From Limisphaerales bacterium (GTDB lineage: Bacteria; Verrucomicrobiota; Verrucomicrobiia; Limisphaerales; BOG-1460), in contig PLQC01000068.1 of assembly GCA_003159675.1 (NCBI GenBank), positions 9,317 to 43,421 on the forward strand: a stretch of DNA of 34,105 nt. The letters run 5' to 3'. The notes beneath the pieces were generated by a model, which saw only the letters and a program-made list of their open reading frames with translations, did no database searches and was not told the DNA's origin. The position numbers and the translations under genes are program-made. This document shows, piece by piece, positions 1 to 11,854 of this stretch (its first letter is position 1; every line of letters begins with the position of its first letter).

Positions 1-28
1 TGCGATTTGCGATTTGCGATTTACGATT
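1..28. repeat. Short tandem repeat, unit about 7 bp (TGCGATT), at the dinB 3' end
   Basis: Three near-perfect units of TGCGATT are followed by a diverged fourth (TACGATT). The array falls in the open dinB frame and is translated as a repetitive Asn-Arg-Lys-Ser-Gln-Ile-Ala tail. Similar degenerate 7-8 bp arrays occur at other gene borders in this window. The array probably continues beyond the window. Confidence 0.7.
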
Positions 29-1300
29 CTGATAAGCAAGCCTTGCGCCTGCGTTCGAAGTTCCGTCCTGCAAGAGCGAGGACGGCCCAGACGGATCAGA
101 GCCGGAATTCCAGGAGGCAGCGGGATCGCCGGGGGTTTCCCTGAGTCTAAAATCGTGTCCGCGCAGGACGACCGAGTTGCCGCGGGTGAGCCGCAGTTGG
201 TCCACCACGCGCGCGAGCCGCTCGCGAGATTCCCGCCGTTGCGCCCCGGTTTCGAGCGGCAGTTCAAATCCGAAAACCCCGGCATAAACGTTGGACAATT
301 TGAGCGACACCATCCGCAGGCTCACGCGGCGTTTCCAGGCGCGGCGCAGCATCAACCGGATCCGACCATAGACGTCCGTCTCCAGGTCCGTCGGCTCGAC
401 GAGACTCTCGCTGCATTGGTCTTCGGTCATGTCGTTATAGCGGACCTTCACCGCGAGCGTGCGGATGCTCTTCCGTTCCTCTCGGATTTTGGCGAACAAC
501 CGGTCGGCCATCCGGCGCAACACGGCTTCGAGGTATTCCTCATCGGCCAGGTCCCGGGCAAAGGTCTCCTGCTGGCTGAAGGATTTGGCCGGTTCGCGCG
601 CGGGAATCAGCGGACGTTCATCGATGCCGTTGGCGAATTGGCGGAGTTGCGGGGCCTGGCTGCCCAGCAATAATTCCAGCATCTCCAAAGGCGTCGCGGC
701 GACGTGCCGGATTTCTGCCAGGCCGGCGGCATTGAGCCGCGCCGAGGTTTTGGGGCCGACTCCCGGCAGCCAGTGGTTCGGGAGCGGGTGCAAAAACTTC
801 CTTTCCCCGCCCGCGGGCACCTGGCGGAAGGCGGCCGGCTTGTTCAACTTCGAGGCGATCTGGCTGACGAGTTTGTTCGCGCCGATGCCTTCGCTGACAG
901 AGATTTTGAGCGATTGCCGGATGGCCTGCCGGATGGTGAGGGCGATCTCCTGCGGCGCCTTGTTCCGGCTGGCGGTCAGGTCGAAATAACCCTCGTCGAT
1001 GGACGTCTGCTCGACTTCCGGGGTGAAATCGTAGCAGTAGCCGAACATCCAGTTGGAAAACTGTTCGTAACGCTCGAAATCGCCGGGCAGCACGATGAGT
1101 TTGGGGCAGAGCTTGCGCGCCCGGGCCGTCGGCATGGGCGTGTAAACGCCGAATTTGCGCGCTTCATACGAGGCGGACGCAATGATCCCGCGTTTCTCGC
1201 CGCCGACCGCCACCGGCTTGCCGCGCAGACACGCGTCAGCCGCCTGTTCCACCGAAGCGAAGAACGCGTCGGCGTCGAGATGGACAATGACGCGGGACAT
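1..1300 (-). CDS. dinB: DNA polymerase IV (Y-family translesion polymerase), 3' end outside window
   Basis: The reading frame is open from its ATG to the window edge, so the gene is partial. It opens with the Y-family motif LDADAFFASVE (residues 8-18). D9 and the pair D102/E103 in SIDEGYFD are the expected metal-binding acids, and F14 lies at the steric-gate position. A helix-hairpin-helix region (LPGVGPKTSARL) and a little-finger domain follow. The family synthesises DNA past lesions with low fidelity. Y-family polymerases of this class are about 350-420 residues. Here 433 codons are open, and the last ones run into a 7-bp tandem repeat, so the true C-terminus is probably a poorly conserved tail. 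It lies downstream of lexA on the same strand, about 315 bp away. I saw no copy of the lexA palindrome in front of it, so SOS control would have to come from readthrough or a different site. Confidence 0.93.
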   Translation of the reverse strand, partial: MSRVIVHLDADAFFASVEQAADACLRGKPVAVGGEKRGIIASASYEARKFGVYTPMPTARARKLCPKLIVLPGDFERYEQFSNWMFGYCYDFTPEVEQTSIDEGYFDLTASRNKAPQEIALTIRQAIRQSLKISVSEGIGANKLVSQIASKLNKPAAFRQVPAGGERKFLHPLPNHWLPGVGPKTSARLNAAGLAEIRHVAATPLEMLELLLGSQAPQLRQFANGIDERPLIPAREPAKSFSQQETFARDLADEEYLEAVLRRMADRLFAKIREERKSIRTLAVKVRYNDMTEDQCSESLVEPTDLETDVYGRIRLMLRRAWKRRVSLRMVSLKLSNVYAGVFGFELPLETGAQRRESRERLARVVDQLRLTRGNSVVLRGHDFRLRETPGDPAASWNSGSDPSGPSSLLQDGTSNAGARLAYQNRKSQIANR

Positions 1301-1417: not shown

Positions 1418-1465
1418 GGGTAGCACGGGCGACTCGCCCGTGCCGACCGGCCACTGGCCGGTCGG
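1418..1465 (+). repeat. 48-bp double-hairpin cassette, left copy (REP-like)
   Basis: GGGTAG is followed by two perfect hairpins: an 8-bp stem CACGGGCG with loop ACT, and a 10-bp stem CCGACCGGCC with loop ACT. A second cassette of exactly the same length and layout lies 58 bp away in inverted orientation. Short GC-rich palindromes with a fixed head sequence resemble bacterial REP elements, which are moved by RAYT-type transposases. No RAYT gene is visible in this window. Confidence 0.85.
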
Positions 1466-1523
1466 AAGAGCCAGGCGTAAGAATCGCCGGGCGCGCCTTG
1501 AATTTCCAGAGCGTTGCTTCCTT

Positions 1524-1571
1524 CCGTCCGGCGAGTCGCCGGACGGAACAGGCGGGTCGCCTGTTCTACCC
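1524..1571 (-). repeat. 48-bp double-hairpin cassette, right copy (inverted)
   Basis: Read on the minus strand this is GGGTAG, an 8-bp stem AACAGGCG with loop ACC, and a 10-bp stem CCGTCCGGCG with loop ACT. Compared with the left copy there are four base-pair exchanges, each compensated on the other arm, plus one loop substitution. No stem is broken. The inverted pair could also fold into one larger cruciform. It lies 44 bp downstream of the lexA stop codon and could act as its transcriptional end, although no T-run follows. Confidence 0.85.
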
Positions 1572-1615: not shown

Positions 1616-2239
1616 TCATTCCTTCGCCCTGCGGATCAGCGCCTTGAACACACCCTGGATCATCAACTCCTGGGCCGGCATCAGGTCGGGATACTTCGGG
1701 TTCTCGGCCTTCAGATACGGTTTGCCGCTTCTTTGGAGAAACGTTTTCAAGGTGCTCTCGCCATCGATCAATGCCGCCACGATATCCCCGTGGCGCGGTT
1801 CCGGCCCGTGTTCCAGGACCACGACGTCGCCGTCGAGGATGTGCCGGCCGATCATTGAATCGCCGGTCACACGCAGCGCAAACGTGTTCCGGGTCGGCCT
1901 GAAGCCGATGCTCTCGATATCCACTGAAACGCAGCCTTCGGCCTCCGGTTCGCGTTCCCGGGCGAAGCCGGCGGGGATCGAGCCGAAGAGGGGAATGTCG
2001 AGGATGCGGCTGCGGAGTTTTGCCAGCGGGGAGATGACACGGAGCGAACGCGCTTTGCCGGGTTCAGATTCGATAAGGCCTTTACGTTTGAGGGCTTCGA
2101 GGTGGCAGGCGGCGGCCCGGTGACTGCGAAACCCGAACTGCGCGGCGATTTCGCGCAGGGTCGGGATGGGTCTGCCGGCGTGAACTTCGGCCTGGATGAA
2201 ATCCAGGACGCGCTGCTGGGCCCGGGTGGGTTTGCTCAT
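1616..2239 (-). CDS. lexA: LexA repressor (SOS response; autoprotease)
   Basis: This is a 207-residue protein of typical LexA length. An N-terminal winged helix (about residues 1-68) carries the recognition segment GFRSHRAAACHLEALKRKG. The Ala90-Gly91 bond in SIPAGFA is the expected self-cleavage site. S128 in GDSM and K165 in STLKTF form the S24-family Ser/Lys dyad. The repressor binds SOS promoters and cleaves itself when stimulated by RecA-ssDNA filaments. The ATG start is supported by good agreement of the N-terminus with LexA proteins, and a strong palindrome sits just upstream. dinB lies downstream on the same strand; the GntR-ABC operon is divergent. Confidence 0.97.
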   Translation of the reverse strand: MSKPTRAQQRVLDFIQAEVHAGRPIPTLREIAAQFGFRSHRAAACHLEALKRKGLIESEPGKARSLRVISPLAKLRSRILDIPLFGSIPAGFAREREPEAEGCVSVDIESIGFRPTRNTFALRVTGDSMIGRHILDGDVVVLEHGPEPRHGDIVAALIDGESTLKTFLQRSGKPYLKAENPKYPDLMPAQELMIQGVFKALIRRAKE

Positions 2240-11775: not shown

Positions 11776-11854
11776 GAAACCTTGCAGCCGCCGCTGTGAA
11801 TTGGCGGACCTGTCTCGCGTTGGCGATCTCCGCCGTTTCACAACGCCGGCTACG
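11776..11854 (+). repeat. Dispersed ~75-80 bp repeat, copy B
   Basis: Second copy of the repeat at 1343-1417, in the same orientation. Here both ends are preserved: GCAGCCGCCG on the left and CGCCGGCTACG on the right, forming an imperfect inverted pair. The right end reaches into the VOC gene and supplies its stop codon (TAG within CGTAGCC on the minus strand). Confidence 0.7.

Follow-up and report, generated by a model that had tools for sequence, protein, structure and literature searches.

A two-hairpin REPIN-type repeat of Limisphaerales and its likely mover, a RAYT clade found mostly in frame within essential genes

The double-hairpin element described here is very probably a non-autonomous mobile repeat of the REPIN type, and its likely mover, judged from comparative sequence analysis, is a clade of RAYT transposases that reside mostly in frame inside essential housekeeping genes. 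The element lies in a stretch of 34,105 nucleotides from a Limisphaerales bacterium, to which we refer as the window. In the following, we describe its layout, its relatives within and outside of its genome, the conservation of its hairpins, and the transposases that units of this kind flank.

Results

The element and its setting

The element and the two genes next to it are as follows (positions of the window).

2..1300, minus strand: flanking gene for a Y-family DNA polymerase (IMS), which runs off the window (Pfam IMS, IMS_C)
1418..1571, no strand assigned: whole element, a REPIN-like inverted dimer of 154 bp, read from the sequence, with two double-hairpin units whose GGGTAG ends face outward
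1418..1465, plus strand: left 48-bp unit with GGGTAG head, 8-bp hairpin (loop ACT) and 10-bp hairpin (loop ACT) (cmsearch 76.0 bits)
1466..1523, no strand assigned: spacer of 58 bp, conserved in part between copies
1524..1571, minus strand: right 48-bp unit with GGGTAG head, 8-bp hairpin (loop ACC) and 10-bp hairpin (loop ACT) (cmsearch 76.5 bits)
1616..2239, minus strand: flanking gene for a LexA-like repressor (Pfam LexA_DNA_bind, Peptidase_S24)

An earlier note on this DNA had described two inverted 48-bp units of the same layout that differ by four compensated exchanges with no stem broken, and re-reading of the sequence bears out this description in full. The left unit (1418-1465, plus strand) reads GGGTAG CACGGGCG-ACT-CGCCCGTG CCGACCGGCC-ACT-GGCCGGTCGG, and the right unit (1524-1571, minus strand) reads GGGTAG AACAGGCG-ACC-CGCCTGTT CCGTCCGGCG-ACT-CGCCGGACGG. 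All 36 stem pairs of the two units are Watson-Crick pairs. The compensated exchanges affect pairs 1 and 4 of stem 1 and pairs 4 and 10 of stem 2, and a single loop base differs besides. Compared with shuffled sequences, the 154-nt element folds with a z value of -7.5 as DNA and of -7.6 as RNA. The spacer of the window copy contains no trace of a RAYT, and a search of the window against Rfam yielded a single tRNA and nothing else. The location between the genes for LexA and the Y-family polymerase, both on the same strand, and the z value of the RNA fold would each suit an element that serves mainly as an RNA device, either a transcription terminator or a stabiliser of 3'-ends, whose hairpins are selected on the transcript.

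Two further repeats are present in the vicinity. A short tandem heptamer, TGCGATT, occupies positions 1-27 near the end of the polymerase gene, and a second GTAG repeat family is represented at 1350-1374 and 11784-11808 (plus strand) by GTAGCCGCCAATGTGAATTGGCGGA, with a stem-swapped partner, GTAGCCGCCGTTGTGAAACGGCGGA, in inverted orientation 45 bp further. This second family counts 62 units in the genome and none in a reversed control; its copy at 1350 abuts the start of the double-hairpin element, and the partner of this copy is degenerate.

Copies in the genome and in relatives

We named the repeat family of the window F1. Its core pattern, GGGTAGNNNNNGCGACNCGC, matches 23 times in the 4.11-Mb genome and not once when reversed as a control, and this recurrence is not chance. 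With a covariance model (R1) built from 23 copies, at least 116 F1 units were found in the genome (150 candidates scored), which disposes of the concern, raised in the earlier note, that no further copies might exist. Most units form inverted plus/minus pairs of 153-160 bp from end to end, and dozens of copies repeat the architecture and length of the element at 1418..1571. The heads before hairpin 1 read GGGTAG or GGGTGG; variants in which GTAG is changed to GTGG are known among GTAG REPs (PMC3733652). The spacer is conserved over much of its length, and conservation is highest in the units. F1 also occurs in 13 of 37 genomes that belong to the same order but to other families. The resemblance to REP elements that had been noticed before can now be put more precisely: the element is a REPIN-like dimer of two-hairpin units of the GTAG REP type.

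Many F1 dimers (L061, L087, L095 and similar), the window copy not being among them, are nested in a larger palindrome with ends GACACTGCCCCCGA, and in six copies (G000:C49:6437-6506 and five more) this exact outer end lies at a fixed distance from the GGGTRG head. Such an arrangement could mean that the element belongs to a MITE that a DDE transposase mobilises via outer terminal repeats. This reading is hardly credible, given that the window copy and others have no outer arms, that conservation peaks in the units, and that the units flank Y1/HUH transposases in many genomes, as reported below; moreover, earlier work has described REP dimers inside other palindromes (PMC3733652). Target-site duplications were not evident by eye in the flanks of the genome copies. 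Several of the outer arms, with an A-run and a T-run, look like bidirectional terminators, which speaks for an RNA device, but the window copy has no terminator-like site; we rejected a terminator role for it, as no terminator match was obtained.

Among the contigs C1, C10, C24, C48, C81 and C120 of the window's genome, several end within F1 dimers, and NN gaps interrupt some of the units; the repeat thus breaks the assembly. A sister family of double hairpins (L111-L114 and other loci of the same genome) is marked by GGGGAG heads and by TCT/TCC/CCT-type loops, and it likewise forms dimers with outer arms.

Conservation of the hairpins

In an alignment of 82 distinct units that was fitted to the covariance model and hence favours structure, both sides of a pair are changed in 166 cells. 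With partners slid by 1-3 columns this number drops to 5-12, shuffles give 61, and none of 500 shuffles reaches 166. A smaller alignment, whose right-hand copies were picked by a pairing threshold, shows the same picture, and both hairpins of the unit covary. The covariation proposed as a check of the element is thus clearly present. Across 67 distinct ungapped units, 1106 of 1206 cells are Watson-Crick pairs, 27 are G-T pairs and 73 are unpaired. Uncompensated stem changes, which the earlier note had regarded as damaging to its case, do exist, but they are a small minority and fall mostly on the basal pair of hairpin 1.

Pairing of the left with the right unit over a long distance was considered as the conserved structure and rejected. 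At variable positions, local hairpin pairing is maintained in 88%, as against 32% for long-range pairing, which makes the two local hairpins the conserved object.

How these compensated changes arise can be viewed in two ways. In a known process, hairpin-templated correction, one arm is corrected from the other while DNA is replicated or repaired; this would produce them by mutation, free of any selection on structure. The scarcity of intermediates, with 166 both-side changes as opposed to few one-side G-U states, fits such a process. It leaves unexplained, however, the constant layout of the units, their matched loops and their link to RAYTs (see below), and we regard it as an unlikely substitute for a REPIN-type mobile repeat, alongside which it may nonetheless act. 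The claim of the earlier note, that the folded structure is either selected or copied in a structure-dependent manner, holds in that the structure is kept, be it by selection or by hairpin-templated copying. The rarity of G-T pairs (27 versus 1106 Watson-Crick pairs) also bears on the RNA device, because selection on RNA is expected to pass through G-U. As the RNA device in addition leaves the units on both sides of in-gene RAYTs unexplained, we judge it to be quite improbable.

A RAYT clade flanked by double-hairpin units

The Y1 transposases detected by Pfam in the window's genome were discarded as candidate movers, none of them having an F1 unit within 1.5 kb. The relevant RAYTs are weakly matched or missed in Pfam. 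In a relative, a weak Y1 match with units on both sides lies within a frame of 824 amino acids that encodes threonyl-tRNA synthetase, and the window's own genome shows the same thrS arrangement; further weak Y1 matches reside inside alanyl-tRNA synthetase and PriA. A clade profile, constructed from seven in-frame RAYTs and searched in 245 genomes of the order, matched RAYTs in stop-free open frames of 555-1540 amino acids. The window's genome has two RAYTs of this clade, in thrS (C64) and in alaS (C120), the latter found only by the clade profile; both host genes are present there as single copies. The alaS RAYT (G000:C120:38025-38489) is located between F1 copies (C120:37853-38010 and 38531 onward), in a gene that is split between two contigs in this assembly. 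Its nearest relatives among RAYTs (65-73% identity) are found in other genomes, and most of the units beside them have the same ACY loops. The thrS RAYT of the same genome is adjoined by units of the kind of the GGGGAG-head sister family. The RAYT transposase that the earlier note proposed to look for is hence represented by a clade flanked by units of this kind, one own-genome member of which adjoins F1 copies. A comparison with PHROGs yielded no viral family.

A scan of GTDB genomes provided 78 loci, some of them from fragmentary metagenome assemblies; by title, nearly all belong to Verrucomicrobiota, with one from Lentisphaerae and one named only 'bacterium'. When 250 bp on each side of the RAYT were scanned for the unit layout, 51 of the 78 RAYTs had an inverted unit on both sides, 15 had one on one side, and 12 had no recognised unit nearby. 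At random positions of the same loci, units on both sides were never encountered (0/1107), and any unit in 13 of 1107 cases. The first two loop bases agree between hairpins 1 and 2 of a unit in 108 of 117 units (shuffled mean 36, maximum 51) and between the left and right unit in 48 of 51 pairs (shuffled mean 16, maximum 26). We infer that the loop may be a family-specific recognition tag. In Stenotrophomonas maltophilia, a base of the loop is under selection and influences cleavage (PMC8266576).

Residence within host genes

Among the 78 loci, the host is recG in 30, alaS in 29, metH in seven, thrS in five, and carB and priA (L280) in one each. The RAYT is in frame within the host gene at 73 loci and has its own short frame at five; because in-frame RAYTs served as seeds of the search, this proportion holds for this clade only. 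Host and RAYT have a common frame wherever both sides are readable, except at L262 (G002:C178), where the upstream part of alaS is out of frame with the RAYT and the downstream part, owing to either an assembly error or a broken gene. Each host has one or two fixed insertion points: residue 351/352 of the query in recG, about 300/308 or 420/421 in alaS, about 290/291 in thrS, and about 350 or 936 in metH. Pfam and NCBIfam confirm the identity of the hosts, whose equivalog cut-offs are passed despite the insert. A single alaS was present in each of 25 genomes examined and a single thrS in each of 11; the interrupted copy is therefore the sole copy there.

Genomes free of the insert have 16-23 residues at site B of alaS. 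The thrS genes of G002, G005 and G032 (L231-L233) contain 64-92 residues at the insertion point; we considered these segments as remnants of the repeat and rejected this idea, as their sequences look unrelated to it, and the thrS site is hence simply a permissive, naturally variable loop.

Many Y1 genes of these genomes are found in frames of ordinary size. More distant RAYTs (L192, L193, L194, L154) also lie within long frames with DnaE and helicase domains, and in-frame residence may thus extend beyond the clade.

The RAYT protein

The HUH motif is present in 75 of the 78 RAYTs, and in 48 sequences P-D-H-x-H is invariant and Tyr131 nearly so. NCBIfam NF047646 (REP_Tyr_transpos) gives near full-length matches of 66-85 bits, one of six exceeding the 80-bit cut-off. 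The RAYT domain was modelled with a pLDDT of 89.6; its best fold match in the PDB, which is also the best by sequence, is 4er8, a RAYT bound to a REP hairpin (E 6e-6, TM 0.64).

The stretch from the left unit to the RAYT domain lacks an in-frame ATG in 56 of 59 loci, and in 30 of the 59 it lacks ATG, GTG and TTG alike; mostly devoid of an ATG of its own, the RAYT would be translated as a section of the host protein. The hairpin units are read in the host frame without stops, as GGTGYQPVAAGNLPAA in alaS and in like manner elsewhere. The fold of the whole AlaRS-RAYT protein was predicted poorly (pLDDT 67, pTM 0.36); legible in it, with caution, are only a fair RAYT part and low-confidence linkers formed by the hairpin units, as one would expect if the domain is tethered. 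In the fusion proteins scanned, Pfam detected neither a Hint nor an intein family. In most usable pairs of RAYTs, dN/dS amounts to 0.035-0.13, several of the synonymous distances being near saturation. Together, these features suggest that the RAYT is produced fused to its host and that selection acts on it.

Mobility of the RAYT elements

On the RAYT tree, the host site must have changed at least 18 times, the least possible number being seven, and the well-supported branches alone force at least five changes for recG and at least six for site B of alaS. At fourfold sites, the RAYT is more diverged than the surrounding host in 24 of 28 disjoint same-site pairs, a difference to which host codon bias may contribute. 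A comparison of L289 with L301 is particularly clear: the two RecG parts are 95% and 98% identical, whereas the RAYTs at the same point share 57% identity and are flanked by units with different heads and loops. The simplest reading is that one RAYT was replaced by another or that the two reached this fixed site independently. Since near-identical recG genes can hold different RAYTs at the very same site, the elements appear to move.

Discussion

Our data lend themselves to a mechanism for the REPIN-type repeat and its candidate mover. Each end of the repeat would be a REP-like unit in which a GTAG-containing head is followed by two hairpins rather than one, and the mover would belong to the RAYT (TnpA-REP) family of HUH/Y1 transposases, process single strands and recognise the unit in its folded form. 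Produced within the host protein, the RAYT would bind folded single-stranded units, cut close to the head in the manner of TnpA-REP (PMC8266576), and move not only unit-RAYT-unit segments but, in trans, also RAYT-less dimers such as the window copy. Insertions into essential genes would survive only in phase and in tolerant loops, for which the stop-free reading of the units should be of help. On this basis, we infer that the fused RAYT may be active, that intergenic dimers may be moved by it in trans, and that the host enzymes presumably work with the insert in place.

A more far-reaching proposal, to which we give about even credence, is that these elements represent a class of transposon living mostly as in-frame domains of essential genes, namely those for tRNA synthetases, replication and repair helicases, and methionine synthase. 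It would reach fixed sites repeatedly, as inteins do, without splicing; its hairpins would double as stop-free linker codons; it would move hairpin-pair repeats in trans; and the host could not frameshift it away without losing an essential gene.

Such a class would be of interest because RAYTs have so far been treated as domesticated and non-mobile, and the reason for their persistence is an open question. The same few in-phase sites in different families, and different RAYTs per site in near-identical genes, constitute evidence that RAYTs themselves move. A frameshift or stop within the transposase would also break the essential gene, which suggests how RAYTs persist. Essential host genes thus seem, as far as can be judged from sequence, to carry a working parasite, and whether essential enzymes function with a transposase inserted becomes a testable question. 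Likewise, the two-hairpin unit with matched loops offers a recognition code that is amenable to oligonucleotide assays. RAYTs of Verrucomicrobiota are probably hidden under names like 'alanine--tRNA ligase'.

Viewed against known systems, F1 shares several features with GTAG REPs, REPINs and BIMEs (Di Nocera 2013, PMC3733652; Bertels and Rainey 2011, PMC3116915): a GTAG adjacent to a perfect hairpin of short length, numerous copies that are mostly intergenic, subfamilies with swapped stems, dimers arranged head to head across spacers of 20-100 bp, and nesting in other palindromes. F1 differs from them by two hairpins per unit, a constant 6+19+23 layout and matched loops, whereas the published families are described with one stem-loop. 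The REP of S. maltophilia, with GTAG, a perfect stem of 8 bp and a 3-nt loop (PMC8266576), closely resembles hairpin 1 of F1. With RAYT/TnpA-REP proteins (E. coli 4er8; the S. maltophilia REPtron, PMC8266576; the survey PMC6006769), the clade has in common the HUH and tyrosine motifs, the fold and the flanking inverted hairpin repeats; it is set apart in that its RAYTs lie in frame within essential genes and change their host gene, instead of standing alone (73/78). The survey of the RAYT superfamily saw no evidence that RAYT genes are mobile, and unusually long fusion proteins were discarded in it (PMC6006769).

TIRYTs and double palindromic TIRs (PMC3733652, Figures 8B and 9) likewise have a tyrosine transposase between inverted repeats, some of which are double palindromes, but they are described as separate genes, a contrast that we draw by description only (PMC3733652). 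In-frame palindromic repeats in essential and repair genes are known from the RPE of Rickettsia and from REPs in uvrA and other repair genes of O. terrae (PMC3733652); those inserts usually comprise 20-30 amino acids (clusters up to 82) and no transposase, whereas a complete transposase domain is inserted here. Our search of the open-access literature brought up no account of RAYTs or other transposases inserted in phase into tRNA synthetases or essential genes. Inteins with homing endonucleases offer a further parallel: a selfish enzyme in frame, conserved sites of essential genes, a patchy distribution and different alleles per site. In contrast to them, the fusions of the clade have no Pfam intein domain and give no sign of protein splicing, and the enzyme is an HUH transposase. 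The parts of the system are hence of known kinds: GTAG REPs, head-to-head dimers, RAYTs, double palindromes around tyrosine transposases, and short in-frame REPs. Two features are new, as far as the open-access literature shows: a unit of constant layout whose two hairpins have matched loops, and a complete transposase residing in frame at fixed sites of essential genes.
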